Below, one piece after another: positions 16,846 to 32,003 of a stretch of 64,000 nucleotides of DNA. A model generated the notes under the pieces. It did not search any database. It saw only the letters and a list, made by a program, of their open reading frames with translations, and was not told the origin of the DNA. The stretch's first letter is position 1. Every line of letters begins with the position of its first letter. Both the position numbers and the translations under genes were made by a program. The stretch covers positions 1 through 64,000 of the forward strand of contig NZ_QOCB01000080.1 in NCBI RefSeq assembly GCF_003318165.1, read 5' to 3'. The stretch is from Psychromonas sp. B3M02. GTDB lineage: Bacteria > Pseudomonadota > Gammaproteobacteria > Enterobacterales > Psychromonadaceae.

Positions 16846-18198
16846 GTGCAGTTGCAACGTACTTATTTTACCGAGCATGTTCCCTTTTCACTCACCTATC
16901 GTGTGCAACAACTTAAGTTATTAAAACAGGCCATTACCGACAATCAAGATGCGTTAATTGAAGCGCTTAATACTGATTTAAATAAACCGGAATTTGAAGC
17001 TTACTTGACTGAAGTTGGTTTCGTGCTCAATGAGTTATCGGATACCATCAAACACTTAAAAAAGTGGATGAAACCCCAAAAAGTAACGACACCTTATTAT
17101 TTACAACCTGCTAAAAGTCACATTCATGCTTCGCCATTAGGCGTTTGTTTAATCATTGCACCTTTTAATTACCCTGTTTCATTGTGTTTATCTCCGCTGA
17201 TTGCCGCACTCGCAGCGGGAAACACTTGTATTGTCAAAACATCTGAATTAACACCGACTGTCAGTCAAGTATTAACCTCGATGATCAATGCGACTTTTCC
17301 GCCTGAATATGTGCAGTGTGTGGAAGGTGAGGTTGAGCAAGTCACTGCATTATTAACACAAAAGTTTGATCATATTTTCTTCACCGGCAGCACTCAGGTC
17401 GGGCAAATTGTGATGCAAGCAGCGGCAAAACAATTAACGCCGGTAACCTTGGAACTAGGTGGAAAAAGCCCATGTATTGTCTGTGCAGACACAAATATTG
17501 ATGTGGCTGTAAAACGCATTGTGTATGGCAAAATGTTAAACACAGGTCAAACGTGTGTTGCCCCTGATTACCTGCTCATTGATGAAAAAATAAAAGATAA
17601 GTTCTTACAAACATTAGTGAAACGCATCATTGATTTATATGGGGAAGATGCCAGTACTAGTGGTGACCTAGGGCGTATTGTGAGTCAAAGTCACACGCAA
17701 CGTATTAGTCGTTTAATCGATGCAAAAAAAGTCATTGTAGGCGGGGATATTGATATTACCCAACGTTATATTACACCCACAGTAATGGATAATGTGTCCT
17801 TAGATGACGCGATCATGCAAGAAGAAGTGTTTGGGCCGGTTTTACCTGTCATCAGTTTTACTAAGTTTGAAGAGGTGTTGGAGGTTATTGAACGTTTACC
17901 AGCACACCCTCTATCGGCATACATTTTTACTGAAAATAAACAGACACAGTCGCTACTGACCTCAAAAATACAAGCGGGTGGTCTTGCCATTAATCAATGC
18001 ATTCAACACCTTGCTAATCCAAACTTACCTTTTGGTGGCGTAGGATTAAGCGGTATTGGGAGTTATCATGGTAAACACGGTTTCGACTGCTTTTCACACC
18101 AAAAGAGTGTACTCACTGCAGCGACTTGGTTAGATTTACCATTACTGTATCCGCCTTATAAACATAAGTTATCACTGCTTAAAAAAATATTTAAATAA
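16846..18198 (+). CDS. NAD(P)-dependent aldehyde dehydrogenase (class 3-like)
   Basis: A 450-residue ALDH superfamily protein, the length of class 3 enzymes, which lack the N-terminal 40 residues of class 1/2. The cofactor site is seen in FTGSTQVGQ, the general-base Glu in TLELGGKSP, and the nucleophilic Cys in NTGQTCVAPDYLL. The C-terminal hydrophobic-basic tail (LLYPPYKHKLSLLKKIFK) could associate with membrane. No ATG opens this frame: GTG at 16846 or TTG at 16852 must start it, with AAAGG nearby. Substrates of such enzymes are medium- to long-chain or aromatic aldehydes. Confidence 0.88.
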   Translation: MQLQRTYFTEHVPFSLTYRVQQLKLLKQAITDNQDALIEALNTDLNKPEFEAYLTEVGFVLNELSDTIKHLKKWMKPQKVTTPYYLQPAKSHIHASPLGVCLIIAPFNYPVSLCLSPLIAALAAGNTCIVKTSELTPTVSQVLTSMINATFPPEYVQCVEGEVEQVTALLTQKFDHIFFTGSTQVGQIVMQAAAKQLTPVTLELGGKSPCIVCADTNIDVAVKRIVYGKMLNTGQTCVAPDYLLIDEKIKDKFLQTLVKRIIDLYGEDASTSGDLGRIVSQSHTQRISRLIDAKKVIVGGDIDITQRYITPTVMDNVSLDDAIMQEEVFGPVLPVISFTKFEEVLEVIERLPAHPLSAYIFTENKQTQSLLTSKIQAGGLAINQCIQHLANPNLPFGGVGLSGIGSYHGKHGFDCFSHQKSVLTAATWLDLPLLYPPYKHKLSLLKKIFK

Positions 18199-18218
18199 CT
18201 CAGCGCATCAACTACTCA

Positions 18219-18788
18219 TTAAGCCTTTAGTATTGTTTTTGCCATCTCTTTTGCAATCAGTGCTGATTGTTTCATGCCGCGAGTGTGAGCCATTACAATC
18301 GCACCTTCAACCAATAAACCGATTTGATCTGCTTTTTGCTGAGTGACTTTCGGATCCGCTTGAGGGGGTAATTGCGTAGCAATAATATCGACTAGGGTTT
18401 GCTTGTGTTTTGCCGCAAAAATATTGATAGGGTGATTAGGATCAGCATATTCAGCGCTGACATTAATAAAGTTACAACCAAAGAACGTATCACTATTAAA
18501 CCATTCATTTAAATTATCAAAAATAACCAATACATCTTCCACTGAGTCAGTATTTTGGGGATCTTGTTTATTACTTTCAATTTTACTTTTTAATTTACTG
18601 ACAACTTGCTCATGACGAAGTTGTAATGCCGCCAATATCAGCTCTTCCTTACTACGGAAATGCTTATACAGTGTTGCCTTAGAGACACCGGACTCCGCTA
18701 AAACCAAATCAATACCTGTCGCATGATATCCAAATTTATTGAATAAAATCAATGCAGTATCAATTAGGTGTTGTTTTCTTGGTTGCAT
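18219..18788 (-). CDS. TetR-family transcriptional repressor
   Basis: A 189-residue regulator. The N-terminal helix-turn-helix is clear: TALILFNKFGYHATGIDLVL then SGVSKATLYKHFRSKEEL. The C-terminal ligand domain is not recognisable by eye. It lies divergent from the VOC and flavin-nucleotide-binding genes and convergent with the aldehyde dehydrogenase gene. A palindrome overlapping a promoter between the divergent genes is its likely operator, so it probably represses the VOC operon and may regulate itself. Confidence 0.9.
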   Translation of the reverse strand: MQPRKQHLIDTALILFNKFGYHATGIDLVLAESGVSKATLYKHFRSKEELILAALQLRHEQVVSKLKSKIESNKQDPQNTDSVEDVLVIFDNLNEWFNSDTFFGCNFINVSAEYADPNHPINIFAAKHKQTLVDIIATQLPPQADPKVTQQKADQIGLLVEGAIVMAHTRGMKQSALIAKEMAKTILKA

Positions 18789-18859
18789 GTTATTGCTTGT
18801 CCTTTTAGCAAATATGTTAAATAAGTGTTCATAATAGCTAAATTATAACCAATTTAAAC

Positions 18860-18889
18860 TTGACGTAAACAGTTCTGTTCACCTATAGT
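18860..18889 (+). promoter_or_regulatory. Promoter of the VOC-PNPOx operon
   Basis: TTGACG (18860-18865), an 18-base spacer, and TATAGT (18884-18889). The -10 hexamer is the exact centre of the neighbouring palindrome. Confidence 0.65.
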
Positions 18890-18898
18890 GGTGAACAG
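18875..18898. promoter_or_regulatory. TetR operator
   Basis: CTGTTCACC-TATAGT-GGTGAACAG is a perfect 9+9 dyad around six bases. Another GTTCAC half-site follows at about 18902. It covers the -10 region, so binding would exclude RNA polymerase. The adjacent TetR gene is the obvious owner. Confidence 0.75.
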
Positions 18899-18999
18899 AC
18901 TTGTTCACTCTTGTTTTTGCTTTCATGTTATTGAGCATTAATATAGCCATTTGGGTAACAAACATTTTATACAACGATAAATTAATAAAGGTATTTGCT

Positions 19000-19440
19000 A
19001 TGTGCGCTACATCTTCAGAAAAATCAATTGAAAGCGGTAAAACAACAATCGGTACTTCAGGTATTCACCATTTAGGCCTTACTATTCCAGACATCAAAAA
19101 AACTGCCGCTTTTTTTATTGAACAATTAAACTTTAAAGTCGTAGGCGAAAAGCCTGCTTATCCAGCCATTTTTGTTTCTGATGGTACAGTGATGTTAACG
19201 TTATGGCAGATCAAAGATGCTGATAACTTAACTGAATTTGATCGCACAAAAAATGTTGGTTTGCACCATTTTGCATTGAAAGTGAATAGCATCGAACAAC
19301 TACAGACTCTCTATCAGAACCTACTTAAACTGGATGACGTTGACATTGAGTTTGCACCAGAAGCATTAGGTGATTCTCCTTTTGAACACATGATGTGTTC
19401 AATTCCCGGTGGCGTTAGACTTGAATTGATTAGTCAATAA
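19000..19440 (+). CDS. VOC-family (glyoxalase/bleomycin-resistance fold) protein
   Basis: About 146 residues from the ATG at 19000, chosen because AAAGG precedes it. The longer frame starts at a TTG inside the promoter region. Two beta-alpha-beta-beta-beta halves are visible: GIHHLGLTIPDIKKTAAFF with HH/E metal-type positions, and GLHHFALKVNSIEQL later, ending in GGVRLELI where Glu is the usual metal ligand. Substrate unknown. Co-transcription with a flavin-nucleotide-binding protein under a TetR repressor suggests detoxification of an electrophile. Confidence 0.85.
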   Translation: MCATSSEKSIESGKTTIGTSGIHHLGLTIPDIKKTAAFFIEQLNFKVVGEKPAYPAIFVSDGTVMLTLWQIKDADNLTEFDRTKNVGLHHFALKVNSIEQLQTLYQNLLKLDDVDIEFAPEALGDSPFEHMMCSIPGGVRLELISQ

Positions 19441-19450
19441 AGAGAAAACG

Positions 19451-20353
19451 ATGGAAAGTAGTTGGCACCAAGGTGAGCGCTTAATACAGAAGCGAGCGGG
19501 TACTGAACAACGAATGGCTGAAATCGGCCCTAAATTCATTCGTCAGTTTATGCCTTTACAACACCGTGAATTTTTTCATTCTCAGACTATGATTTTCATG
19601 GCTTATCGTGATGCCACTTCAATCATTCAAGGCAGTATTCTGTTTGGTGAAGAGGGCTTTATTTCCTCACCCACAGAGACTGAGTTATGGATCAATACAC
19701 AAAATCCAATGAGTGATTTCAGGCACAATCAAATTAACGTGGGAGATCGTATTGGTTTACTCGCTATTGAATTTAATACAAAGCGGCGTAATCGTGTTAA
19801 TGCGATCATTACTGAGATTAACCAAAAGAACATTAAAGTGTCTGTATTACAGAGTTATGGCAATTGCCCTAAATATATTCAACCTAAAACATTAGTTAGT
19901 AACGCAGATTATGATCCGACGTCGCAGTTATCTTCGATAATAATGACCAATGATCTGCGAACCTTGATATGCCAAGCAGATAGTTTTTTTATTGCCAGCT
20001 ACTTTGATGATGGAGAAGATAAGAGAAGCCGTGGCGCTGATATCTCGCACCGTGGCGGGGAAGCTGGTTTTGTTAGAATTAACGACAACGGGCAATTATT
20101 AATAGAAGACTACTTAGGTAATGGCTTCTTTAACACCTTAGGTAACTTAATGGAGAATCCCACGGCAAGTCTCTTATTTTGCGATTGGCAGCAGGGCCAT
20201 GCTGTACAGATAAAGGTGACCAGTGAAATACTATGGTTAGAGCAAACATCGGGTCAATCAAGTCAGAAACTGACCGAACCCAAACGTACTCTATGTTTCA
20301 CTCCTCATCAATTTACTATATTAAACAACAGCCTAGCTTACCGTAGTAAATAG
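19451..20353 (+). CDS. Pyridoxamine 5'-phosphate oxidase-family flavin-nucleotide-binding protein
   Basis: A 300-residue cytoplasmic protein starting ten bases after the VOC gene, with GAGAAAA upstream. It contains two split-barrel-like segments: residues about 45-120 (MIFMAYRDATSIIQGSILFG, then VGDRIGLLAIEF) and about 170-265 (SFFIASYFDDG, then GGEAGFVRIND). The second resembles the FMN-binding half of PNPOx-like proteins such as those fused to ferredoxin reductases. The enzymatic role is not predictable. It is the second gene of the TetR-controlled operon. Confidence 0.75.
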   Translation: MESSWHQGERLIQKRAGTEQRMAEIGPKFIRQFMPLQHREFFHSQTMIFMAYRDATSIIQGSILFGEEGFISSPTETELWINTQNPMSDFRHNQINVGDRIGLLAIEFNTKRRNRVNAIITEINQKNIKVSVLQSYGNCPKYIQPKTLVSNADYDPTSQLSSIIMTNDLRTLICQADSFFIASYFDDGEDKRSRGADISHRGGEAGFVRINDNGQLLIEDYLGNGFFNTLGNLMENPTASLLFCDWQQGHAVQIKVTSEILWLEQTSGQSSQKLTEPKRTLCFTPHQFTILNNSLAYRSK

Positions 20354-20633
20354 TCATTTAATTCTATTTCGACTAATGCCAATCCCACTCAGTCATTGAG
20401 CTATTTTACTTGTTAAAATAACTGACTCCTCCGTTTAATTTTCGCAAATAGAACAACTATTTAATAATTAACATTTTTTAGTTAATTCTCCATCAGACTA
20501 TGAACCAAGTTAACTATTCGGTTTTTAATACATTGCCAAATAGTGGTTTAAATGGTTCACAAAACTGTCAATTTTTCGGTTTATTCTGTTTGTATTAGCT
20601 ATAGAAAAAGCCAGAGCATTCTTTTATGCCATA

Positions 20634-20661
20634 TTGCATTCTTATTTTCACTTACTATAAT
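20634..20661 (+). promoter_or_regulatory. arsR promoter
   Basis: TTGCAT (20634-20639), 16 bases, then a consensus TATAAT (20656-20661). It lies 31 bases before the chosen arsR start. Confidence 0.6.
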
Positions 20662-20676
20662 ATGCGCATATGTGAA
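20647..20676. promoter_or_regulatory. Probable ArsR operator
   Basis: A 12-bp perfect palindrome ATATGCGCATAT (20660-20671) abuts the -10 hexamer, and a wider TTCAC...GTGAA dyad (20647-20651 and 20672-20676) frames it. AT-rich dyads over the promoter are the usual target of ArsR-type repressors. Confidence 0.55.
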
Positions 20677-20691
20677 TATATGGAATTTTAT

Positions 20692-21024
20692 ATGCAACCG
20701 CACCAGTTTTTTAAAATGTTATCCGATGAAACACGATTACGCTGCCTTATCTTAATCGCAAGAGAGGAAAGGATTAGTGTTGGTGAACTGTGTTTGGCAC
20801 TGAATCAAAGTCAGCCAAAAATATCGCGTCACCTGGCTATTCTGCGTCAATCGGGCGTGCTCTTGGATCAACGTGAAGGGCAGTGGATCTATTACCAAGT
20901 CAATCCTGCTTTACCAGGTTGGATGCGCCAAGTGATTGCAGGATTAACGACTTCAAAATGTTTAAAAGCAGAATACCTTGATGATATTGAAAATTATCAA
21001 CAAAGCAAAATGACAGAAAAATAA
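20692..21024 (+). CDS. arsR: ArsR-family transcriptional repressor
   Basis: About 110 residues from ATG 20692 (MQPHQFFKMLSDETRLRCL); in-frame codons further upstream overlap the operator. It has the winged helix of ArsR: SVGELCLALNQSQPKISRHL then REGQWIYYQVNP. The classical arsenite site is ELCVCDL in the DNA-binding helix; here only one Cys remains in this element (ELCLAL), with another at the C-terminal end (SKCLKAEY), so the ligand site differs from the plasmid R773 type. It precedes the GAPDH and arsJ genes, which it most likely controls. Confidence 0.9.
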   Translation: MQPHQFFKMLSDETRLRCLILIAREERISVGELCLALNQSQPKISRHLAILRQSGVLLDQREGQWIYYQVNPALPGWMRQVIAGLTTSKCLKAEYLDDIENYQQSKMTEK

Positions 21025-21054
21025 ATCAGATTAAATGTAAATTAAATAGAGAGA

Positions 21055-22062
21055 GTGACCATGACAATTAAAGTAGGTATTAATGGATTTGGACGTATCG
21101 GCCGTTTAGCAATGCGCGCAGCATTTGATTGGCCTGAAGTTGAATTTGTACAAGTTAATGATGTGGCTGGTGATGCAAAAACCTTAGCGCATTTATTAGA
21201 GTTTGACTCAATACAAGGTCGTTGGAATCACGCCGTGACTTGCACAGACAACACCATGGAAGTAGCAGGGCAATCAATTAAAGTGACACAACAAGGTGAA
21301 ATCGATGCCGTAGATTGGTCTGGTTGTGATGTGGTTATTGAGTCAACGGGCGTTAATAAAGACAAAGCATTATTGGATAAATACACTGCGCAAGGCGTTA
21401 AATTAGTGGTGGTTTCAGCTCCGGTTAAACACCCTGATGTCGCTAATATTGTGGTGGGCGTAAATGAAGAAACCTTTAAACCAGCGTTTCATAAAATCAT
21501 TACGGCAGCATCTTGTACCACTAACTGTATTGCACCGGTTGTTAAAGTCATTTATGAAAAACTGGGTATCACTAATGCCGCATTCACAACGATTCATGAC
21601 TTAACTAATACACAAACTATTCTTGATGCACCGCATAAAGACCTACGCCGTGCGCGTGCTTGTGGTATGAGTTTGATCCCTACTACAACCGGGTCAGCAA
21701 AAGCCATTATTGAAATTTTCCCTGACTTAAAAGACAAAATTAACGGGCATGCGGTACGTGTGCCGTTAGCGAATGCATCATTAACAGACATTGTTTTTGA
21801 AGTAGCAAGAGATACCAGTGTTGAAGAAGTTAACCAACTATTAAAAGAAGCATCAGAAGGTGAACTTGCTGGGATTCTTGGTTACGAAGACCGCCCATTA
21901 GTCTCAATTGATTACCGTGGTGACCAACGTTCAACGATTGTTGATGGTTTATCAACCATGTTAATCGGTAAACGTATGTTAAAAATCTACGCTTGGTACG
22001 ATAACGAAATGGGCTACGCAACACGTACTGCTGAGCTTATTAAAAAAGTCTCATTAATTTAA
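21055..22062 (+). CDS. ArsJ-associated glyceraldehyde-3-phosphate dehydrogenase
   Basis: A 335-residue GAPDH. The NAD-binding start GINGFGRIGRLAMRA, the catalytic Cys in ASCTTNCIAP and WYDNEMGYATR near the end are all intact. Its place between arsR and arsJ marks it as the arsenate-detoxifying paralogue rather than the glycolytic enzyme: it uses arsenate in place of phosphate to make 1-arseno-3-phosphoglycerate, which ArsJ exports. GAGAGAG precedes the ATG. The gene follows arsR by 30 bases and precedes arsJ by 21, so the three form one operon. Confidence 0.92.
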   Translation: MTMTIKVGINGFGRIGRLAMRAAFDWPEVEFVQVNDVAGDAKTLAHLLEFDSIQGRWNHAVTCTDNTMEVAGQSIKVTQQGEIDAVDWSGCDVVIESTGVNKDKALLDKYTAQGVKLVVVSAPVKHPDVANIVVGVNEETFKPAFHKIITAASCTTNCIAPVVKVIYEKLGITNAAFTTIHDLTNTQTILDAPHKDLRRARACGMSLIPTTTGSAKAIIEIFPDLKDKINGHAVRVPLANASLTDIVFEVARDTSVEEVNQLLKEASEGELAGILGYEDRPLVSIDYRGDQRSTIVDGLSTMLIGKRMLKIYAWYDNEMGYATRTAELIKKVSLI

Positions 22063-22083
22063 TCGCCCTTAGGAATAAAAGCA

Positions 22084-23310
22084 ATGAAGTGGTTCTCAAC
22101 ACTGGATAAATCGCTACGACAATACCTACTTGTTACCTTTAATTACTGGAACTTTACAGTCACTGACGGTGCATTACGTATGTTAGTGGTGCTGTACTTT
22201 TATGAACTAGGGTACAGCCCGTTAGATATCGCTTTATTGTTTTTGTTTTATGAAGTATTTGGGGTGATCACCAACCTAGTAGGTGGCTGGTTAGGGGCAC
22301 GCGTTGGGTTAAATCGCACCATGAATATTGGCTTGGCTATGCAAGTGGTCGCCTTGTTATTGCTGACCGTTCCTAACCAATGGTTAACCATACCTTGGGT
22401 GATGATGGCACAAGCCTTGTCGGGAATAGCAAAAGACCTCAATAAAATGAGTGCCAAAAGCTCCATTAAAACCCTAATTCCTAATAATCAACAGGGGAAG
22501 CTTTACCACTGGGTGGCAGTATTAACCGGGTCTAAAAATGCCTTAAAAGGGGCAGGTTTTTTCATCGGTGGTTTGCTATTAACGCTGGTAGGTTTCCAAG
22601 TGGCTTTGTTGATTATGGCGGGTGTGTTGGCGGCGGTTTTTGTGATGAGCTTGATGTTCCTGGAAGGGGATTTAGGAAAAGCTAAAACCAAACCTAAATT
22701 TAGTCAGATGTTCTCCAAATCTGGCCCTGTGAACATTCTATCAGCGGCACGCTTATTTCTGTTTGCGTCCCGTGATGTGTGGTTTGTGGTTGCTCTGCCT
22801 ATCTACTTAGCCAGTATTTTTGGCTGGTCGCATTCTATTGTTGGCGCTTTCCTCGCAGCGTGGGTAGTTGCTTACGGCATAGTGCAAGGTTTTGCCCCTA
22901 AAATTACCGCATACTTCACAAAAGAGGGCGCAGCACCGGACGGTAAAAACGCCATGTTATGGTGTGCATTATTAGCGATGATAACGGGTGTATTAGCGGT
23001 GGGAATACACCTAGAGTGGCATGTACAAACCTTGATTATTGTTGGGTTATTGATTTTTGGTGCTATCTTCGCCATTAACTCCTCTTTACATTCTTACTTA
23101 ATTATAAGTTATGCGAAACAAGATGGTGTGTCATTAGATGTGGGCTTCTATTACATGGCCAATGCCATGGGACGTTTAGTCGGCACCGTATTATCGGGCT
23201 GGGTTTACCAAGCCTATGGCTTTGCCGCGTGTTTATGGATAGCCTTTGCGTTTTTAGTTATTACCAGCTTGATCTCAATAAAGTTACCCATTCAAAAGCC
23301 GACTGAATAA
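22084..23310 (+). CDS. arsJ: ArsJ organoarsenical efflux permease (MFS)
   Basis: A 408-residue major facilitator with about 10-12 hydrophobic helices. Recognisable are the N-terminal WNFTVTDGALRMLVVLYFYELG and the loop GWLGARVGLNRTMNIG, broken here at positions 21 and 75 of the protein. ArsJ exports 1-arseno-3-phosphoglycerate, which falls apart outside to arsenate and 3-phosphoglycerate, giving net arsenate efflux. It is always paired with the GAPDH encoded just upstream, as here. A GGCTTT/AAAGCC hairpin follows the stop. Confidence 0.92.
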   Translation: MKWFSTLDKSLRQYLLVTFNYWNFTVTDGALRMLVVLYFYELGYSPLDIALLFLFYEVFGVITNLVGGWLGARVGLNRTMNIGLAMQVVALLLLTVPNQWLTIPWVMMAQALSGIAKDLNKMSAKSSIKTLIPNNQQGKLYHWVAVLTGSKNALKGAGFFIGGLLLTLVGFQVALLIMAGVLAAVFVMSLMFLEGDLGKAKTKPKFSQMFSKSGPVNILSAARLFLFASRDVWFVVALPIYLASIFGWSHSIVGAFLAAWVVAYGIVQGFAPKITAYFTKEGAAPDGKNAMLWCALLAMITGVLAVGIHLEWHVQTLIIVGLLIFGAIFAINSSLHSYLIISYAKQDGVSLDVGFYYMANAMGRLVGTVLSGWVYQAYGFAACLWIAFAFLVITSLISIKLPIQKPTE

Positions 23311-23403
23311 TAATGTCTGTATCGCTAACTCCCTAAGGCTTTACAAAGCCCAAGGAGAATTAGCAATTAATTGAAATAGTCATTTCAATTACCCCCTTTA
23401 TCC

Positions 23404-23434
23404 CATTCCGTATTTTGCTTATTAATACGGAATG
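23404..23434. repeat. Perfect 11-bp inverted repeat after the ars operon
   Basis: CATTCCGTATT and AATACGGAATG surround a nine-base loop. It may be an ars operon terminator, although the following sequence (CTTCTCTTT) is only weakly T-rich. It marks the left border of the accessory pocket. A smaller hairpin (TTGAAAT/ATTTCAA) lies near 23370. Confidence 0.5.
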
Positions 23435-23571
23435 CTTCTCTTTAAATGATTATTTTTTGATTATCAGATTTAAATCATTGTTTTTATGTTCCGACAGCGT
23501 ATATTTTAACAAATTAAACTATTCCGCACTTCCGCTGTTATATGTTTTTTTATTTACTGTAGAGGTTCACT

Positions 23572-24792
23572 TTGAGCAAAAGAAAGAATTTTCTGGAAAA
23601 GACTAAAAAAATCTTAGCTGGAAGAGCTGGTTATCAATGCAGTCACCCTAGTTGTAATATCATAACTATTGGGGCTGGAGAAGAAGCTCATACCACATCT
23701 TCAATCGGTGAGGCCGCACATATATATAGTGCATCACTTGATGGACCTAGAGGGCAGGGAGGACTTAGTGATGATGAACTAAGAACACTGGATAATGGGC
23801 TATGGGCATGTAAAAATCATGCAAGATTAATTGATACAAATGATGGAGATGGATTTTCTGCTGAGCAATTGAAGTCATGGAAATTTCTTCATGAAGAAAA
23901 AATAAAAACGCACCAGGGACGGATTCAAAGGAAATCATTTTGGTTGAGCTCTTTGATAATTAACCAAAGTAAAGTATTTAAAAATGAACAGACAATATAT
24001 TTTGGTAAGGTCACCTTCGTTTATGGGGGAGAAAATACGTCAGGAAAGTCAACAATATTAAATTTCATCAACTCTCTTACAAGTTATGAAGCATTAAAAT
24101 CAAGAGTAGACAATAATCAATCTTTTAATTATGAACTCGAATTTTGTAACCCTGATACAAATATCTTTTCAGTTAACTCTAATAGAGGCGTAATTAGTTC
24201 CACCCTAAATGACAATATTGTTAATTTCAATCCGATACCAATGGCTATTTACAGGTTTGATTTAGAATTTAGGATAAACCTTTATTCTAGCGAATTGGAT
24301 GATCAAGACGCTTTAACGAATTACTTGAAAATTGATAAAATTAAATTAGCAGGGTTGTTAAATAACGTAGGAAGATCTAAGTACTCTCAAGTTAGTAAAG
24401 CATATATTGATTTTCAAGAGCCTTCAGAAGATGATGGCGAATTTAAAGCAGGATATTATCTTAATGTAATATTAAAAGGATGTGATTTTGCACTTAACTT
24501 AGCAAGCCTATCCTCTGGTGAAAAAAGTATGGTGTTGTTAGAGCTAATTATTGAATTGGTACAAACATATGCAAAATATACCCAAAGCCTTTTGCTTGTT
24601 AATCTTCAATCGACTTCATTTCATGATTCAACACTTAGTAATTACCTTAAGTATTTCATGTCTGGAGAGGTCGATTTTCAAACAGTCATAACAAGCGTGA
24701 CTAAAACTAATTGTCCCGAAGTCAAATTAACAAACTGTTACTCGTTAGTTGGGAAAGTTCAAGAGGTGGTTATTTCCCCAGTTGAACATTAA
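23572..24792 (+). CDS. HNH nuclease-ABC/SMC-type ATPase fusion (defence-like)
   Basis: A 406-residue protein from TTG 23572 with AGAGG upstream. Residues 1-110 look like an HNH/zinc nuclease module: CSHPSC (23-28), EAAHIYSAS with His50, GLWACKNHARLID (77-88) and a WKFLHEEK tail. Residues about 120-406 are a compact ABC-type ATPase: Walker A GGENTSGKST (152-161) and signature SLSSGEKS (about 311-318). The Walker B position reads SLLLVNLQST (about 338-347), so the usual Asp-Glu pair is missing, which suggests nucleotide binding with poor hydrolysis. No long coiled coil separates the ATPase halves. Arg is written almost only as AGA/AGG and Ile often as ATA, unlike the flanking genes, so it was probably acquired. 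Septu systems pair an HNH protein with an ATPase, but the order and fusion here differ. Function inferred, not known. Confidence 0.72.
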   Translation: MSKRKNFLEKTKKILAGRAGYQCSHPSCNIITIGAGEEAHTTSSIGEAAHIYSASLDGPRGQGGLSDDELRTLDNGLWACKNHARLIDTNDGDGFSAEQLKSWKFLHEEKIKTHQGRIQRKSFWLSSLIINQSKVFKNEQTIYFGKVTFVYGGENTSGKSTILNFINSLTSYEALKSRVDNNQSFNYELEFCNPDTNIFSVNSNRGVISSTLNDNIVNFNPIPMAIYRFDLEFRINLYSSELDDQDALTNYLKIDKIKLAGLLNNVGRSKYSQVSKAYIDFQEPSEDDGEFKAGYYLNVILKGCDFALNLASLSSGEKSMVLLELIIELVQTYAKYTQSLLLVNLQSTSFHDSTLSNYLKYFMSGEVDFQTVITSVTKTNCPEVKLTNCYSLVGKVQEVVISPVEH

Positions 24793-24809
24793 CTGCATAT
24801 AATAAGTCA

Positions 24810-24877
24810 ATTCAACAGCACTAAAAACAGCGGGCTATTCGCTTCGCTCAAGTTTAGCCCGTTAATATGGGCGTTAA
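24810..24877 (+). repeat. attC-like imperfect palindrome
   Basis: It starts ATTCAAC (fits RYYYAAC) and ends GGGCGTTAAC. The inner perfect stem CGGGCTA (24831-24837) / TAGCCCG (24855-24861) has a 17-base loop. The outer arms pair only partly. This build and the GGGCGTTA end resemble integron attC recombination sites, and the element directly follows a stand-alone gene as in a gene cassette. The core R' box GTTAACT breaks the GTTRRRY consensus at one base, and no integrase is in the window. No T tract follows, so it is not an ordinary terminator. Confidence 0.35.
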
Positions 24878-24910
24878 CTAAAAATGTGGCGCCGTCATAA
24901 GAAGTGATAA

Positions 24911-25888
24911 ATGATTACAATACAGTTTCCAAAGCAATTTGGTCGAGATACCCTAGAGTTTTTTTTTAAAGATCTTGAAAAAAACCTGAATGCAGTAAGT
25001 GTCTGCGTTGATTGTTCCACACTAGAATTCTCGTATCCATCGGGAATGTTAATTGCGGGCTCGAAGATTCGAAAATGGATTGAATATAGGCGGGAAAATG
25101 GCTTAGTTACAGATATAAAAGGTCATGATAGTAATAAAAAAGCTCATGGTTATCTAGGGCATCTAGGTTTTTTTGATTTTATTGGGTTCGAAGAAGGTAA
25201 AACAGTTGGAGAAGCAAAAGGCTCAATTACCTATTTACCAATTACCTTAATTCAAAAGCCGATTATCGACTTTAAAGACCATAGTCTACAAGATTGGTAT
25301 GACGATATAATGTCAAAAACACGAAGATTGGCAAACCTATTGTCTGGCACCAACGAATACACTGAAGAAAATAGGTTATATCATTATGCATTACGTGAAA
25401 TTGTTCGTAATGTATTTGAACATTCAGGTTCAAATGAATGTCATATTTGTGGGCAACGCTGGGCCAATGGTCGAGTAGAAGTGGCAGTCGTTGATAACGG
25501 TATCGGTATTGCAAAATCTCTTCAGCGCTCATATGCAATTGAATCGCAGTCACAAGCATTACGAATGTCGATTAAACCAGGAGTATCTAGTACCAGAAAA
25601 ATCCCTGAAAATGAGAATATATATGATAATTCAGGCTTTGGGTTGTACGTTTTAAATGAACTGGCTTCATCTTTTGGTTGGTTTCTTTTAGGAAGTGGCG
25701 ATGCCAAGTTAGTGTCTCAAGGACAGAGAATAAACGTTACAAAATTAAGTTTTAGGGGGACGTACATTGGTTTAAAACTTAATAAAGCGCCAAGCCAATT
25801 TAGTGGGTTATGTAAGGATATTATTCTTTCTGGAGAAGATGAATCTGGTGTCAAAGTTAAAGCGTCAGGAATGTCTAAGTATTACTAA
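24911..25888 (+). CDS. STAS-like + GHKL-type ATPase protein
   Basis: A 325-residue soluble protein. Residues about 1-95 resemble a STAS fold (VSVCVDCSTLEFSYPSGMLI). Residues about 150-295 are a histidine-kinase-like GHKL ATPase: N box ALREIVRNVFEHSG (159-172), G1 box VVDNGIGIA (193-201) and G2 GFGLYVLNE (244-252). There is no dimerisation/phosphoacceptor helix, no receiver and no membrane segment, so it is not a sensor kinase. A CHICGQRW motif lies between the N and G1 boxes. Such stand-alone STAS/GHKL proteins occur in accessory and defence loci. It may work with the HNH-ATPase gene before it, but an attC-like element separates them and they may be independent cassettes. The ribosome site is weak (AAGAAG). 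Confidence 0.68.
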   Translation: MITIQFPKQFGRDTLEFFFKDLEKNLNAVSVCVDCSTLEFSYPSGMLIAGSKIRKWIEYRRENGLVTDIKGHDSNKKAHGYLGHLGFFDFIGFEEGKTVGEAKGSITYLPITLIQKPIIDFKDHSLQDWYDDIMSKTRRLANLLSGTNEYTEENRLYHYALREIVRNVFEHSGSNECHICGQRWANGRVEVAVVDNGIGIAKSLQRSYAIESQSQALRMSIKPGVSSTRKIPENENIYDNSGFGLYVLNELASSFGWFLLGSGDAKLVSQGQRINVTKLSFRGTYIGLKLNKAPSQFSGLCKDIILSGEDESGVKVKASGMSKYY

Positions 25889-25921
25889 GTTCAGTTAACA
25901 AGTTAATCACTGGAGGTTTTT

Positions 25922-26275
25922 ATCAACATTCAACGCTTCTCAACCTTAACAAACCTCTCTTCCCATACCATTCGCTATTATGAAAAGATTGGGGTGTTAA
26001 AACACATCGCGCGCAATGCCGGTGGGCATCGCTTCTTTACGACTAAAGATATCGAGTGGATTGAGTTTGTTAAACGGTTAAAAGAGATGGGCATGCCGCT
26101 GGATAATATTAAGTTATATGCCGATTTACGTGAGCAGGGGGAATCAACAGCCGATCAACGTAAGGAGTTGTTACAAGAGCATGTTGTTATCCTAGAAGAG
26201 AGAATTGCGTTAGAGGCATTACACCTCAAGAAGATTAAAGAAAAAATCCTTTATTACGAAAGTTTAAGTGGTTGA
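25922..26275 (+). CDS. MerR-family regulator with a non-canonical start codon
   Basis: The full MerR N-terminus is in frame only if translation starts at ATC 25922: INIQRFSTLTNLSSHTIRYY, then EKIGVL and NAGGHRFFTTKDIEWIEFV. TGGAGG lies five bases before this ATC, exactly where an ATG is expected, and a TAA closes the frame just upstream (25904). The first ATG/GTG is GTG 25994, which would remove most of the DNA-binding helix-turn-helix. So either ATC is used as a rare start, or the start codon has mutated and the gene is crippled. The product would be 118 residues, of the non-metal MerR branch. It controls the following CMD gene through a classic 19-bp-spacer promoter. Confidence 0.7.
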   Translation: MNIQRFSTLTNLSSHTIRYYEKIGVLKHIARNAGGHRFFTTKDIEWIEFVKRLKEMGMPLDNIKLYADLREQGESTADQRKELLQEHVVILEERIALEALHLKKIKEKILYYESLSG

Positions 26276-26302
26276 CTTAGAGTTTACTCTAAGGATTAAG
26301 CT
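26272..26302 (+). promoter_or_regulatory. MerR-type promoter and operator of the CMD gene
   Basis: TTGACT (26272-26277), a 19-base spacer and TAAGCT (26297-26302). The overlong spacer contains the perfect dyad CTTAGAGT-TT-ACTCTAAG (26276-26293). This is the standard layout for activation by DNA untwisting. The -35 box includes the stop codon of the merR gene itself. Confidence 0.8.
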
Positions 26303-26334
26303 GATGTTCTTCCCATTAATGAACAGAGGTTACT

Positions 26335-27144
26335 ATGACAACGTTAAATGAACGGTATGAAACAGGATTAAAAAACTTAAAAATAATTGATAAAGAGGCG
26401 GGTGAAAAGGTCGTTGAAAGCCTAATGGGCTGTTCACCAGACCTAGTGAAATACATTATCGAATATGGGTTTGGTGATGTTTATAATCGAACCGAACTAG
26501 CACTTAAGTCAAAAGAGTTAAGCGTTGTTGCTGCACTCACCGCCATGGGCAATGCGGCACCACAACTAAGAGTGCATATTCATGGTGCCTTGAATGTCGG
26601 TGCTAATATCGCTGAAATACAAGAAGTGATATTACAAATGTCTAGCTATGCTGGCTTCCCCGCTGCAATTAATGGCATGTTAGCCTTAAAAGAGGTGGTT
26701 GCTGAACGCAAACAAGAGGGCAAGTTAGATGAAACTGGTGTTATTCAGTCGGATGCTATTCCTCAAGGTACTTCACGTTATGTGCTAGGTGCGCAACACC
26801 TTAGTCAATTGGATGCGAACCAAGTTGAAAACTTAGAAGCGACATTTAAAGATATCTCGCCTGACCTCGCTAGGTTAGTGATTGAATACGGTTTTGCCGA
26901 TATTTTCTCAAGACCCGCTTTAGATAGCCAGCATCGAGAAATGGCCACCATTGCAGCGTTAACCGCGATGGGCACCGCTTCACCACAACTGCAATTTCAC
27001 ATAAAAGCGGCCTTAAAGATCGGTGTTAGCCAAGTAGACATTCGAGAAATAATGATTTTAATGAGTGTGTATTGCGGATTCCCAGCGGCTATTAATGGCA
27101 CCTTGGCATTAAAAGAAGTGCTCAGTGAAAGGGATGCTAATTAA
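26335..27144 (+). CDS. Tandem carboxymuconolactone decarboxylase-fold protein
   Basis: A 269-residue protein with two CMD domains (about 20-125 and 155-262). They repeat the same sentence: SPDLVKYIIEYGFGDVYNR / SPDLARLVIEYGFADIFSR, then AALTAMG and GFPAAING. Neither half has the CxxC of AhpD, so peroxidase activity is not expected. The repeated His in LRVHIHGALN/LQFHIKAALK follows the gamma-CMD pattern. The substrate is unknown. Control by a MerR regulator of the aldehyde/electrophile-responsive branch suggests a stress role. The ATG is preceded by AGAGG. Confidence 0.85.
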   Translation: MTTLNERYETGLKNLKIIDKEAGEKVVESLMGCSPDLVKYIIEYGFGDVYNRTELALKSKELSVVAALTAMGNAAPQLRVHIHGALNVGANIAEIQEVILQMSSYAGFPAAINGMLALKEVVAERKQEGKLDETGVIQSDAIPQGTSRYVLGAQHLSQLDANQVENLEATFKDISPDLARLVIEYGFADIFSRPALDSQHREMATIAALTAMGTASPQLQFHIKAALKIGVSQVDIREIMILMSVYCGFPAAINGTLALKEVLSERDAN

Positions 27145-27295
27145 AAAGCAAAGTCTGTTGGCTAGTACTCACGAATGCACTTCATAGCTATAACTGGCTT
27201 TAATCAATGGCATCCATTATTTAAGTTTAAGGTTATTAATAAATGAATAACCTTAAACTTTCATTTATGAGCCATTAGATAACTCTATTAAATAT

Positions 27296-28366
27296 TTATA
27301 TTTCTGGTACTTCTGAAAGAAACTTCGCAAGATTACTTTCGTATAACCATGGGAGGTGGTAAACCGTACCATGTCCTGAGTAACTACTATCAGCCTTAAT
27401 CATGAGTGATTTTGCATGTGGTATCTTATTAATGTTAATACTTAAAGTATCTAGATCAGCGGGATTTCTTGGGTCCCCATCTTCATTAATTAATAGGACG
27501 TATGCTTTAATTTTATTTAAATCTTTTTCAGGCGCGAAATCTCGAGATGCTCCCCATTGATACATTGCATCGTTAGCATCTGGAGCCGTTTTAACTGAAT
27601 ATTTCTCTTCAAGTGCTTTGTTAAATGATTCTGGAGTTGGATAAAGTGCTGACATTTTTTTATTGTTTAAATAAAATGCTGTACCAAACCAAATTCGAGC
27701 GGTAAGGAAAGAAGGGGGAACATCAGTATAATTTCCGTTATCCCACAGCGGATCTCTACGTATTGAGTCAATTAAAAGTTTGCGCATAGCCCAGTTTTTA
27801 CCTGACATTGTTATGGGAAAGGCTGCAGTCGGTACAATAGAGTCCATGTAATCCGGGTACATTATTGCCCAATCAAAAGCTAACATACCACCCATTGAGT
27901 ACCCAAAAATACTTCGTAAATGATCGATATTTAGGTGGTTTTTTAATAGAGCATATTGTGTTTTGACGATGTCATGATAATTATAAACTGGGAAATTTGC
28001 TTTTAAACCATCTGAAGGTTTTGTGCTGTCTCCTGTGCCAATAGAGTCTGGTGCGATTAAAAAATATTTTCGGGCATCAAGAGCTTTATTAGGGGCGTAA
28101 AGGTTTTCAACAAGTGCATCTGATAGCATGCTGCCGCCATTACCATGAGTGCCATGTAAAAGAAGAACAGGCTCACCTTCAGGGTTTCCAAAGGTGCGAT
28201 ATGTGATTTTTAAATTTGGCAAAGTTTCACCACTTTCAAATTTAAAATTATCTATCGTATATTCGCTTTTTGTCACTTTCATGTAATCCACTGCATGAAC
28301 TGAGAAAACTAAAGTAGACAAAGTTGTAAAAACTAACCATTTATACATCAACTTTATTTTGTTCAT
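27296..28366 (-). CDS. Exported alpha/beta hydrolase (homoserine acetyltransferase-like)
   Basis: A 356-residue protein with a signal peptide (about 1-25, ending FSVHA). The fold is alpha/beta hydrolase: LLLHGTHGNGG oxyanion region (about 68-78), nucleophile elbow FGYSMGGMLAFDW near residue 155, acid in NEDGDPRNP and the catalytic His in YSGHGTVYH near the C-terminus. The overall pattern (TYRTFGNPEGEPVLLLHG, IAPDSIGTGDS) is that of the MetX/homoserine O-acetyltransferase family, but a periplasmic location argues against a methionine role; esterase activity is more likely. The gene stands alone. Confidence 0.82.
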   Translation of the reverse strand: MNKIKLMYKWLVFTTLSTLVFSVHAVDYMKVTKSEYTIDNFKFESGETLPNLKITYRTFGNPEGEPVLLLHGTHGNGGSMLSDALVENLYAPNKALDARKYFLIAPDSIGTGDSTKPSDGLKANFPVYNYHDIVKTQYALLKNHLNIDHLRSIFGYSMGGMLAFDWAIMYPDYMDSIVPTAAFPITMSGKNWAMRKLLIDSIRRDPLWDNGNYTDVPPSFLTARIWFGTAFYLNNKKMSALYPTPESFNKALEEKYSVKTAPDANDAMYQWGASRDFAPEKDLNKIKAYVLLINEDGDPRNPADLDTLSININKIPHAKSLMIKADSSYSGHGTVYHLPWLYESNLAKFLSEVPEI

Positions 28367-28607
28367 TGTAATAATCCTTTGTTTTTAATATTAATAGGTG
28401 TTTTTATGTTTACTATTGTTAATTTATAGGTTTTTTGATAGATTTTTTAGATCTTTTGTCACATTTCTTAACATATATTTTCTTATTGTTTCATTGGTGA
28501 AGTTTGATCATACTTTTCTATTTCGTTTTACTGTGAAGGAGTTAATGTTAAAGTGATGAATAACTTGATGTTATGTGCTGTTATTATTCATTAAGTGGAT
28601 GTTCATT

Positions 28608-29000
28608 ATGCTTAATTCAAAACATACAAATAAAAAGCTCTCTCAGCAAAAAATAGACGCCGCGATTAAGCGACTTGAGCGGTTTAGTAAACTAACTGAT
28701 AGCAGTATGCGTATTCCTTTTACACAATTTAGGGTTGGTATTGACGCTCTCATCGGCTTAGTGCCGCTTGTTGGGGATGCGGTTGGTGTGCTGTTATCAA
28801 GTTATGTCTTGTTTGAAGCACACCGAGTCGGCGCTAGTAAACGCATTAAATTGAAAATGGTTATTAATATATTAATCGACTTCTTCGGTGGTTTAATTCC
28901 TTTGTTTGGTGACTTTTTTGATGCCTTCTTTAAAGCCAATACACGTAACACGACTATGTTAAAAGATTATTTAATGAAGCAAGGGCAGGTGAGTGATTAA
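28608..29000 (+). CDS. DUF4112 membrane protein
   Basis: About 130 residues from ATG 28608, with AAGTGGA upstream. The line RIPFTQFRVGIDALIGLVPL, then VGDAVGVLLSSYVLFEAHRVG and a later GLIPLFGDFFDAFFKAN, is the DUF4112 signature. The two glycine/proline-rich hydrophobic segments would be membrane-inserted. The function of the family is unknown. Confidence 0.82.
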   Translation: MLNSKHTNKKLSQQKIDAAIKRLERFSKLTDSSMRIPFTQFRVGIDALIGLVPLVGDAVGVLLSSYVLFEAHRVGASKRIKLKMVINILIDFFGGLIPLFGDFFDAFFKANTRNTTMLKDYLMKQGQVSD

Positions 29001-29085
29001 TCGTTGAGGTTAATTTGTATTGTTATTATTCTCTCTTTGCGTATTGTGATTCTTCTTTATATACATTCATTCAAAAGGAGCTCTG

Positions 29086-29331
29086 ATGAAATTAACGCTT
29101 TATCACATGGGACACTGTCCATTCTGCAAGCGAGTGATTAAAGTCATTCAGAGCCAGAAAGTGGATGTGACTTATAAAGATTTAGATGTACATGATAAGT
29201 TAAGAAAAGAACTAATGGCGGGCGGCGGTAAAGTACAGGTGCCTTGTTTATTGATTTCTGAAAAGGGCAAAAGCGATCAGTGGATGTATGAGTCACAGGA
29301 TATTATTCACTTTTTAAAGCAACATTATTAA
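29086..29331 (+). CDS. Glutaredoxin/GST-N-like thiol protein
   Basis: An 81-residue thioredoxin-fold protein. The redox motif CPFC is in HMGHCPFCKRV (9-15 region), VQVPCLLI gives the cis-proline and the C-terminal ESQDIIHFLKQHY matches the glutathione-binding end of glutaredoxin and GST N-terminal domains. AAAGGAG precedes the ATG. It could be a dithiol glutaredoxin reducing protein or glutathione mixed disulfides. It stands beside a LysR/GST pair. Confidence 0.82.
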   Translation: MKLTLYHMGHCPFCKRVIKVIQSQKVDVTYKDLDVHDKLRKELMAGGGKVQVPCLLISEKGKSDQWMYESQDIIHFLKQHY

Positions 29332-29379
29332 CGTTAAAGATTTTTTCTAAGCTGGTAATTACCAGTTTATTCATGTTTA

Positions 29380-30231
29380 TCAATGCTTTCCTTCATTAAC
29401 AAATTGCTCAGCTAGCTTTTTTACCATGGTTTGGCTAATCGGGTTATGGGTATGGTTTGCAAGCAACAGCACTAAATCAACGGATGGCAAAGCTGGTAGC
29501 GTTGGATCATCAATGATGATTAATGATTCCGCTTTGCTTATTTCTGCCATTGCTCCTATTGCTAAATGGTTTTTTACTAGGCCTTCAATAGCACTTAAAC
29601 TTGAGCAACATCCAACTACTTTAAATTGTCGTTCAGTTTTTAATAACCCTTCGATTGCTGCTTGATGAAATTTACAATCACGCATAAAAATAGCCAATGG
29701 TAAGGTCATTTCTTGGCGGTAATTAAACAACTCACTTTTTACCCATACTCCGGTGCTGGCATGAAGGAAATACCCTTCTTCAGAACTAGGAGAGCGAGTC
29801 GCTATAATTAAATCTAGTAAACCTTGGTCTAGCTGCTTCTTTAGTTCTAGGGTTGATGCGCAGGTGATCTGTAAATCTAATTGCTCTATAAGTTGATGTA
29901 AGAGTTGGGTGATTCTAGGTAATATAGATTGAGCATAATCATCAGGGCAACCTAGTCGAATACGGACCAGATCAACACTTGTTTTTAATTGTTTATGAGC
30001 TTCGTCATGTAGTGTGATTAATTGCTTTGCATAACTCGCTAACTGAATCCCCGCATGAGAGAGCACAAGCTGTCGACCTTGCTTAACAAATAATGGGGTA
30101 GCAACATCCGATTCTAGCTTCTTCATCTGCATACTTACCGCTGACTGAGTCCGACAGACTTGTTGCGCGGCTCGAGTAAAGCTGCCTGTATCTACAAAGG
30201 CTAAAAAAGTACGAAGTGCATCAATCTCCAT
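29380..30231 (-). CDS. LysR-family transcriptional regulator
   Basis: A 283-residue LTTR. The N-terminal helix-turn-helix is DALRTFLAFVDTGSFTRAA then AVSMQMKKLE (about 4-42). The effector domain begins at VRIRLGCPDDYAQSILP. It is divergent from the GST gene with a 118-base gap containing a strong dyad, so it most likely regulates GST and itself. Confidence 0.9.
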   Translation of the reverse strand: MEIDALRTFLAFVDTGSFTRAAQQVCRTQSAVSMQMKKLESDVATPLFVKQGRQLVLSHAGIQLASYAKQLITLHDEAHKQLKTSVDLVRIRLGCPDDYAQSILPRITQLLHQLIEQLDLQITCASTLELKKQLDQGLLDLIIATRSPSSEEGYFLHASTGVWVKSELFNYRQEMTLPLAIFMRDCKFHQAAIEGLLKTERQFKVVGCCSSLSAIEGLVKNHLAIGAMAEISKAESLIIIDDPTLPALPSVDLVLLLANHTHNPISQTMVKKLAEQFVNEGKH

Positions 30232-30252
30232 ATTAATCCTATGGTGTTCAAT

Positions 30253-30271
30253 ACATCAATATCATTGATGT
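30253..30271. promoter_or_regulatory. LysR-type operator
   Basis: ACATCAAT-ATC-ATTGATGT is a perfect 8+8 dyad that also fits the T-N11-A rule (ATCAATATCATTGAT). It is 22 bases upstream of the lysR start and about 80 bases upstream of the GST start. Confidence 0.65.
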
Positions 30272-30349
30272 AAGGTATGAAAAACTTTGGCGAGTATTTA
30301 GCCACATCCTGTTTTATATTGTTGATAACTTAATCACTTAGGAGTTGTA

Positions 30350-30997
30350 ATGCAATTATTTATTGGTAATAAAAACTATTCTACATGGTCATTGAGAGCA
30401 TGGTATTTAATGAGCAAATTCAATGTAGTATTTGATGAAACTCAGCTGGTACTTGATACACCTGATTTTTATAGTGAGTTACAAAAGCATTTCACCGTGC
30501 ATAAAGTACCAGCACTGATTGATGGTGATTTAAAGGTATCGGATTCATTAGCGATCTGTGAATACATCAATGATGCTTATTTGTTAGGTGCTGCATGGCC
30601 AAAAAATATTGTAAAGAGAGCCCAAGCTCGTAGTTTAAGTGCAGAGATGCATTCTGGATTTATGGCATTAAGAAACGAAATGCCAATGAATATAAGAGCA
30701 ACCCGTCACCTTGAGTTGTCAGCGGCGGCTAAACAAGATATTGCGCGTATTGATCATATTTTTGCTACACAACAAACTGTTTACCCTAATGCTTGGTTGT
30801 TTGGTGACTTTAGTATTACTGATGCAATGTATGCACCTGTTGTATTACGTTTAAAAACATATCAAATTAGTTTATCTCCGCTGGCGGAGCAGTATTGTGA
30901 GTATGTGCTAAGTTGCCCTGTGTTGCAGGGGTGGGTAGTACAAGCACTAACTGAAACTGATATTGTCGAATGCGATGAAGCGGGTGTAGAGGTTTAA
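30350..30997 (+). CDS. Glutathione S-transferase
   Basis: A 215-residue GST. The N-terminal thioredoxin domain has the active-site Ser region NKNYSTWSLRAWYLM, cis-proline VPALIDG and the glutathione gamma-Glu site SDSLAICEYI. The C-terminal helical domain carries the N-capping motif FGDFSITDAMYAPV. This profile fits the bacterial GST group that begins LxIGNKNYSSWSLR. It is divergent from the LysR gene. Confidence 0.9.
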   Translation: MQLFIGNKNYSTWSLRAWYLMSKFNVVFDETQLVLDTPDFYSELQKHFTVHKVPALIDGDLKVSDSLAICEYINDAYLLGAAWPKNIVKRAQARSLSAEMHSGFMALRNEMPMNIRATRHLELSAAAKQDIARIDHIFATQQTVYPNAWLFGDFSITDAMYAPVVLRLKTYQISLSPLAEQYCEYVLSCPVLQGWVVQALTETDIVECDEAGVEV

Positions 30998-31004
30998 CGC
31001 CAAT

Positions 31005-31030
31005 AAAAAAGGGGACAACATTGTGTCCCC
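31005..31030. terminator. Terminator between convergent GST and nitroreductase genes
   Basis: GGGGACA (31011-31017) and TGTCCCC (31024-31030) form a seven-pair stem. The A tract at 31005-31010 becomes a T tract for minus-strand transcripts, so it chiefly ends the nitroreductase message. Confidence 0.75.
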
Positions 31031-31079
31031 TAGAATAGTTTAGCTAGCTAACATGGTGATGCTGGCTAGCATTATTTGA

Positions 31080-31736
31080 TTAAACAACCGTGATCACATC
31101 ATCCATTGCTAAACGTGCTTTTGGTAAGCCGTAGTTGTAATCCTCTTCTGCTTTCGGGTAACCGATAGCTAATGCAACTTCACAGATATGTCCGTCTAAC
31201 TCTTCTTTGAATAATTCACCGATTAAATCAGCATCTACACCTTCCATCGGTGTTGATGAAATGCCCATGCGTGGCAGAGTATGTAATATGTTACCTAGTG
31301 CAAGGTAAACCTGTGCTTTAGTCCATGAACCGTTAAAACCATTTTCATCAGTGTTGAAATCTGCAAAAGCGTAAGCGCCCATGAAGTTATCGTACATTTC
31401 AGCTGGTAGGTGTCCTGAGCTTACTTCTGCATCGACACGTTTACGGAATTTGTCTTTAGTAAATTTAGGGTCGTAAGCAAATAAAATAGTATGAGAAGCT
31501 TCTTTCGCATGTAGTTGGTTAAACTGGTGCTTGTTAGCAAATGTATCATGTAAACGTTGTTTACCTTGTTCACTTTCAACAACGATGAATTTCCATGGTT
31601 GTGAGTTAATAGATGAAGCAGATAGACGCAGTGCTTCTTTGATTATTTGCATATCTTCAGCTGAGATGCGTTTTGTTTCATCGTATTTTTTAGTGGTGTA
31701 ACGAACGTTTAAGTCTTTAATGATTTGTTGGCTCAT
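31080..31736 (-). CDS. nfsB: NAD(P)H nitroreductase, NfsB type
   Basis: A 218-residue flavoprotein of the nitroreductase family. FMN-binding landmarks are RYTTKKYD near residue 12, SASSINSQPWKFIVV (about 38-53) and the C-terminal LAIGYPKAEEDYNYG. NfsB-like enzymes reduce nitroaromatics and quinones by two electrons. The start is preceded by AGGAAATAAC on the minus strand. It sits in a cluster of detoxification genes. The exact substrate is unknown. Confidence 0.85.
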   Translation of the reverse strand: MSQQIIKDLNVRYTTKKYDETKRISAEDMQIIKEALRLSASSINSQPWKFIVVESEQGKQRLHDTFANKHQFNQLHAKEASHTILFAYDPKFTKDKFRKRVDAEVSSGHLPAEMYDNFMGAYAFADFNTDENGFNGSWTKAQVYLALGNILHTLPRMGISSTPMEGVDADLIGELFKEELDGHICEVALAIGYPKAEEDYNYGLPKARLAMDDVITVV

Positions 31737-31989: not shown

Positions 31990-32003
31990 ATAGAGGTGGG
32001 ATT

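Follow-up and report, generated by a model that had tools for sequence, protein, structure and literature searches.

The locus described here lies at positions 23572-25888 of a 64 kb stretch of Psychromonas sp. B3M02 DNA (NZ_QOCB01000080.1), the whole of which we call the window, and all of its features run on the forward strand. A conserved MFS transporter gene (22084-23310), which adjoins the corresponding element in genomes G125, G151 and G011 as well, forms the left flank and is followed by an attI-like element without an integrase (23405-23544), which comprises two AT-rich hairpins, ends on the right in the GTTA junction and is homologous to six intI-attI intervals. Gene 1 (23572-24792; 406 residues, TTG start) encodes an HNH nuclease joined to an ATPase head of the SMC/Rad50/RecF type in which the Walker B acids are replaced; together with its own attC site (24800-24879) it forms a first integron cassette (23545-24879), bounded by the attI junction on the left and attC on the right. 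Gene 2 (24911-25888; 325 residues, ATG start) combines a STAS domain with a GHKL kinase domain. Behind it lie a probable remnant of a second attC site (25896-25916), of which the left end alone persists, and a MerR-type regulator gene (25920-26275; named by eye), a conserved right flank shared with G125 and G151 from about 25911-25920 onward. The preliminary description had reported two open reading frames at this place, and their coordinates and domain assignments proved correct.

The GC contents are 34% for gene 1 and 36% for gene 2, against 36-44% in eleven measured neighbours. In gene 1, 11 of 12 arginine codons are AGA or AGG, compared with 17 of 104 in the neighbours (p 2.8e-7), and there is a weak excess of ATA among its isoleucine codons (10/28 versus 42/228; p 0.045). 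Gene 2 shows no significant shift (arginine 6/16, p 0.08; isoleucine 5/25, p 0.79), so that an earlier remark on the deviant codon usage of the locus is valid for gene 1 alone, which does look foreign. A promoter scan returned fewer matches than shuffled sequence and none in 23405-23572, and we therefore claim no cassette promoter; Rfam gave no match in 22000-27500.

Two features of the flanks deserve mention in their own right. A strong double hairpin at 23324-23391, behind the MFS gene, lies in a segment (23305-23420) that folds at z -4.35 and is probably a terminator or a repeat between that gene and the attI copy. The MerR-type gene conserves two elements in all three species (25916-25950 and its counterparts in G125 and G151), GGAGG and, 4-5 bases further on, ATCAAYATTCAACG. 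None of ATG, GTG and TTG stands there, and it is possible that translation begins at a non-standard codon (ATC or ATT).

The two proteins and their relatives

The HNH module of gene 1 occupies residues 6-113 (within 23572-23922) and is of the Cap5 type, with C23, C28, H50, N75, C80 and H83 in place. It matches the PADLOC model PDC-M68A (1.8e-22), CBASS HNH effectors (7e-21 and 2e-19) and the front part of one SduA model, and in sequence the structures 9om4, 8ysq and 7rwk. The remainder, residues 122-406 (23935-24789), is assigned to Pfam AAA_23 (2.8e-6) and carries a Walker A motif (GGENTSGKS), a signature motif (LSSGE) and a Walker B strand (LLLVNL). In an AlphaFold2 model of the protein (mean pLDDT 85.2, pTM 0.72) this part superposes on the SMC head 5xei (VIA-align Z 20.3, rmsd 4.5, 267 residues aligned), and we describe it as an SMC/Rad50/RecF-like head without a coiled coil. 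The fusion of an HNH module to a short ABC-type ATPase, as proposed from the first inspection of the DNA, is thus confirmed.

An alignment of 28 gene 1 sequences (A4; window included, one row incomplete) shows C23, C28, H50, N75 and C80 to be invariant in 28/28, whereas at position 83 there are 19 rows with His and 9 with Cys. His50, Cys80 and His83 had been put forward as nuclease residues; the first two hold up as invariant, while the alternation of His and Cys at position 83 makes it more likely that C23, C28, C80 and H/C83 form a zinc site. A zinc finger of this kind is present in the Cap5 HNH domain according to PMC8568899. In the ATPase, the Walker A lysine (Lys159) is invariant. Of the 27 rows scored at the Walker B aspartate place, 19 have D, 6 have E and 2 have N; at the next place 8 have E, and the full DE pair is present in 8/27 members, window counted. 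A relative on a Streptomyces plasmid is one of those that retain Walker B. Both acids are absent from the window (SLLLVNLQS), where their replacement had been noticed from the start, and from the relative at locus L094. Retention of the ATP-binding lysine alongside erosion of the hydrolysis residues leads us to predict that the gene 1 ATPase acts as a switch gated by ATP binding; a protein that lacks the acids for ATP hydrolysis could also be inactive.

The fusion is present over most of its length at 31 loci outside the window, two pairs of which are apparently identical DNA drawn from both collections. These relatives belong to Actinomycetota, Bacillota, Myxococcota, Bacteroidota, Acidobacteria and other groups and occur also on plasmids, in viral contigs and in cassettes; at L095 the gene sits between a tail-fibre gene and a tail-sheath gene. 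A full-length gene 1 is found in 1 of 295 genomes of the order and 1 of 369 of the class, the window's own genome being the one in both sets; in the order-wide search (295 genomes) the gene 1 query matched 3 and the gene 2 query 3. At L041 a relative lies just behind genes for an OLD-type ATPase and a UvrD-like helicase, an order that by eye is Gabija-like. A literature search returned nothing on 9OM4, on HNH-ATPase names or on PDC-M68.

In gene 2, residues 1-93 form the STAS domain and residues about 105-292 the GHKL domain, which is recognized by Pfam HATPase_c (3.7e-7). In the predicted structure (pLDDT 87.4) the STAS domain aligns with TM1442 (VIA-align Z 8.4, rmsd 2.4, 87 residues), a modest score barely over the level that VIA-align calls common, and the top structural match of the GHKL domain is SpoIIAB (Z 13.3, rmsd 2.8, 134 residues), an anti-sigma kinase. 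The earlier designation of gene 2 as a GHKL ATPase with a STAS-like N-terminus agrees with these matches. Weak Foldseek matches had raised the candidate identity of a topoisomerase, which we rejected when VIA-align gave SpoIIAB instead. The N and G boxes of the family are invariant (22/22), as is Ser319 (22/22), which lies in a C-terminal A/P-S-x-x-S/T tail.

CapK, which shares this STAS-GHKL core, is shown in PMC13373217 (EMBO J 2026) to be a kinase that acts on the STAS protein CapS once ssDNA has activated it; the paper proposes an equivalent role for VapK in vapKSC and has GHKL-STAS kinases controlling neighbouring immune genes. Activation of these kinases by ssDNA runs through an aromatic residue, W68 in CapK and F54 in VapK. 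Gene 2 carries aromatics around P43 (F44 in 19/22; F40 and Y42 in the window). Using a profile built from five small STAS proteins that partner distant gene 2 relatives, we found no small STAS gene in 19901-30900 of the window and none at 28 near-relative loci (L192, L194 and L195 among them; some with short flanks), and on these sequence grounds we place gene 2 in a partnerless branch of the STAS-GHKL kinases. The more distant relative at L198 has a small STAS domain fused at its C-terminus. Pairs of a STAS-GHKL kinase gene and a small STAS gene stand at L197, L199, L202 and L203, with no obvious VapC in their short flanks, and L201 (G511) holds what by eye is a vapKSC-like trio of STAS-GHKL kinase, small STAS protein and PIN-like protein. 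Relatives of gene 2 are also found as a lone gene in prophages and cassettes; since nineteen of the near-relative loci come from a viral collection, their frequency in prophages mirrors the collection searched.

An attC site and dispersed copies of an attI region

A covariance model (R1) built from 20 attC sites, none of them from the window, identified a single significant site in the 64 kb, at 24800-24879 (51.7 bits, E 5.1e-8), the runner-up scoring E 0.26. The gap between the two genes resembles the repeats behind the cassette genes of the genome's own integron on contig C108, and its alignment to other attC sites is the decisive evidence for attC; no signal came from folding the intergenic strand by itself (z -0.06 and -0.39). 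Gene 1 followed by attC has the layout of an integron gene cassette. Because 14 successive model positions are missing from the site and it starts with TAAT instead of TAAC, it may be weak. By eye, no integrase gene is present among the open reading frames of 18000-32000. The integrase of the C108 integron belongs to TIGR02249 (442 bits against a cut-off of 265), and when it was used to query the whole genome the sole match was on C108.

Seven base pairs past the gene 2 stop stands TAACAAG, which from the attC box consensus we take to be a typical attC start; the likeness then stops short, and the sequence continues as the flank of the MerR-type gene (by eye). Elsewhere, relatives of both genes have cassette-like surroundings. 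A gene 2 relative in G233 (53% identity) has an attC-like end that shares 76% identity, across 106 bp, with its counterpart behind the gene 1 relative at L094, which itself has an attC upstream (1313-1409) and, directly downstream, a site recognized by pattern match only (4026-4141). At L014, in Thalassotalea PP2-459, a gene 1 relative cut short near the contig end lies inside a cassette array and is preceded by attC-like sequences, one scoring E 0.009 and another recognized by eye.

The surprising part of the locus is that its attI-like element is one of many. Within the 24 genomes of the genus that were searched, which are also all that a family-wide search covered, 23405-23544 recurs as 57 matches in 14. 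Six loci (L279, L283, L286, L324, L325 and L326) have it immediately ahead of intI, at the attI position, where intI and the cassettes join; the intI of L283 is in two pieces, and L286 and L326 matched partially. The three integrases scanned (L156, L279 and L286) all exceed the TIGR02249 cut-off. The remaining intI genes of the genus, that of the window's genome included, have an attI region without a BLAST match to the element, and several of these regions, again including the genome's own, end in a similar GCTGTTA (by eye). When 31 near-full-length copies were aligned, four of them at intI, a conserved unit emerged that extends from TATTCCGTATTT to GCTGTTA, beyond which the sequences diverge; GTTA stands at the right end of 24/31 (by eye). 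The window's unit terminates at an inner GCTGTTA, through either insertion there or deletion between two repeats. A search of Thalassotalea PP2-459 for the element gave an empty result that carries no weight as absence, and a literature search (without bioRxiv and with few subscription papers) returned no dispersed attI copies in titles or abstract openings.

Copies without an integrase occupy 52 distinct places, window included (53 rows, one site being duplicated), and searches with the IntI of the window's genome found no integron integrase in the stretch read at any of them; the recombinase-like matches at E 1e-3 were a distant tyrosine recombinase downstream at L298 (32% identity) and a very weak match at L182. 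Sites of the one attC type modelled were mapped over about 2.5 kb each way, less at contig ends, and were found downstream, on the same strand and within 2.6 kb, at 22 of the 52 places and upstream at none. Four of the 22 are weak matches (L273, L292, L305 and L308; E 0.0009-0.009), and six (L179, L181, L183, L184, L187 and L188) had contributed attC sites to the model. Among the 42 rows retrieved by similarity to the element alone, attC lay downstream in 14 and upstream in 0; for the remaining eleven, the query had also held the window attC or the row was the window itself. The largest array at an integrase-less copy, ten attC sites in 5 kb, is at L181 (G247, contig 18). Upstream of the copies at L284, L288, L297, L302 and L305 there is, by eye, a stretch that we presume from its promoter box to be integrase-promoter-like, with no match to an integrase, and these loci could have lost intI.

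The cargo at these copies varies. In the window, G125 and G151 the element is flanked by the MFS gene and the MerR-type gene, and the three species differ in the cassettes held between them: the HNH-ATPase and STAS-GHKL genes in the window, a small membrane-like protein and a caspase-domain protein in G125, and two unrelated small genes in G151. In G011 the same MFS gene precedes the element by about 0.8 kb, and the contig ends before any MerR gene. Ten cassette genes from other copies, those of G125 included, were picked by eye; five matched Pfam (caspase, SduA_C, Mrr with OLD TOPRIM, DUF2971 and, just under the cut-off, DUF4062) and five had no match. PADLOC was run on six proteins, the gene 1 HNH and five of the ten, and identified the cassette protein of L275 as a full-length Shedu SduA (E 2.7e-229); the other four gave weaker matches to defence or candidate models. 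Because the choice was non-random, we claim no enrichment for defence.

Interpretation of the locus

Our preferred reading, to which we assign a probability of roughly 0.7, is that we are dealing with a cassette site lacking an integrase, in which two cassettes were independently acquired behind a copy of the genus integron's attI. This rests on the attI copy, the attC between the genes, the differing cargo of related species at the same site and the lack of linkage between the two genes at the loci examined. We infer that the chromosomal integrase of the same genome, on contig C108, inserts cassettes at the site in trans.

The genes had first been taken for a two-gene locus, and in that sense they could form a defence or stress operon in which the STAS-GHKL protein senses damage and turns on the HNH-ATPase. 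They are adjacent, on the same strand and both defence-like, and PMC13373217 gives GHKL-STAS kinases control over nearby immune genes. They are nevertheless separated by the attC at 24800-24879, and clearly deviant arginine codons are found in gene 1 alone. HMM searches found the partner absent at 31/31 other gene 1 loci and at 26/26 other gene 2 loci (25 places), in flanks mostly of 4-6 kb and of about 1.4 kb in L149 and L150. Across 369 genomes of the class, 4 carry a gene 2 that covers nearly its entire model and 1 carries such a gene 1, and both occur only in the window's genome, rare misses being possible as the best five or fewer candidates per genome were scored. The absence of pairing outside the window in these searches is the observation that had been named beforehand as refuting a two-gene locus; the operon is largely refuted and would now be very surprising, and the two genes are separate, independently acquired cassettes.

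Somewhat unlikely, in our judgement, is that the attI-like element is a general dispersed repeat of the genus of which the integrase makes incidental use, the integrase-less sites being dead former integrons. The absence of the modelled attC type from the stretch read at 30/52 copies, the five copies that retain integrase-promoter-like sequence and the shortened attC of the window speak for it, and, given the decayed look of that attC, the integrase-less sites may be relics. A mere repeat fits poorly with an element that occupies the attI position of six intI genes, with modelled attC sites on the attI side alone (22 to 0, and 14 to 0 by element alone) or with cargo that differs among species at the same site. 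It is improbable that gene 1, instead of being a defence nuclease, encodes an ATPase of DNA repair that is inactive or has a housekeeping role. Its fold is shared with the heads of SMC, Rad50 and RecF, and the Walker B acids are missing in the window and L094, yet a full-length gene is as rare as one genome in the order and one in the class, its relatives travel on plasmids, in viral contigs and in cassettes, and the HNH positions C23, C28, H50, N75 and C80 are retained in 28/28.

Within the cassette-site reading, we lean towards gene 1 being a putative antiphage nuclease that acts alone, most likely as a DNA-damaging defence effector. Its ATPase head would bind ATP and pair on DNA ends or on altered DNA made by phage, and this pairing would join two HNH domains and allow them to cut DNA. 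Because the window branch lacks both Walker B acids, its ATP hydrolysis would probably be slow or absent, making the head a one-way switch. We rate with similar confidence the idea that gene 2 is a putative ssDNA-sensing kinase, most likely a CapK/VapK-type serine kinase in which the groove between STAS and GHKL would sense ssDNA. As no STAS partner gene accompanies it, the target may be a STAS protein encoded elsewhere or the conserved serine at its own C-terminus.

Only tentatively do we combine these elements into a distributed integron, in which a resident integrase would act in trans on many attI-only sites dispersed across the chromosome, several of them loaded with antiphage genes; gene 1 would then represent an unnamed single-chain defence system, and gene 2 would be a kinase that senses ssDNA and has no partner. 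The usual picture of an integron is that of a single integrase with a single attI and a single array. If the distributed form is true, one integrase would load cassettes at scattered places, attI-only sites would account for integrase-less cassettes at fixed hotspots, and such sites would be a ready hunting ground for new defence genes. Independently of this, the HNH-ATPase family puts the Septu idea of HNH plus SMC-like ATPase into one short chain with a repeatedly eroding ATPase site, which makes the gating of a nuclease by ATP binding alone a testable question.

Relation to known systems

That the locus holds defence-like parts without belonging to a named system, as the preliminary description had it, is borne out by comparison with Septu, with CBASS Cap5 and with capKS and vapKSC, whose adjacent partner genes are absent. 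Septu consists of the ATPase PtuA and the HNH protein PtuB, and it and the retron Ec78 effector likewise couple an SMC-like ATPase with an HNH nuclease; the matches of gene 1 by sequence and fold include structures of PtuA and of the retron. Septu, however, has separate ptuA and ptuB genes, whereas gene 1 is one fused chain with HNH first and no second gene, lacks the coiled coil, has an HNH of the Cap5 type and belongs to a family in which Walker B is often lost. The match of gene 1 to PtuA models is weak (1.4e-4), and no PtuB model is among the 16 PADLOC families matched by its HNH. The Cap5 effector of CBASS (HNH-SAVED) has an N-terminal HNH module whose motifs are common to gene 1 (7rwk, 8ysq and 9om4), although its other half is a SAVED sensor where gene 1 has an ATPase head, and no CD-NTase (cyclase) gene was seen by eye among the open reading frames of 18000-32000.

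Gene 2 has the architecture of CapK and VapK as presented in PMC13373217, a STAS domain followed by a SpoIIAB-type GHKL domain with intact N and G boxes (22/22), and differs in having neither an HTH nor an adjacent CapS, VapS or VapC and in its conserved C-terminal serine.

As for the site as a whole, a CALIN is a cluster of attC sites without an integrase, and the locus resembles such clusters and chromosomal integrons in holding attC cassettes with no integrase gene beside them. It differs from a CALIN in being headed by a copy of an attI region, of which the genus has many.
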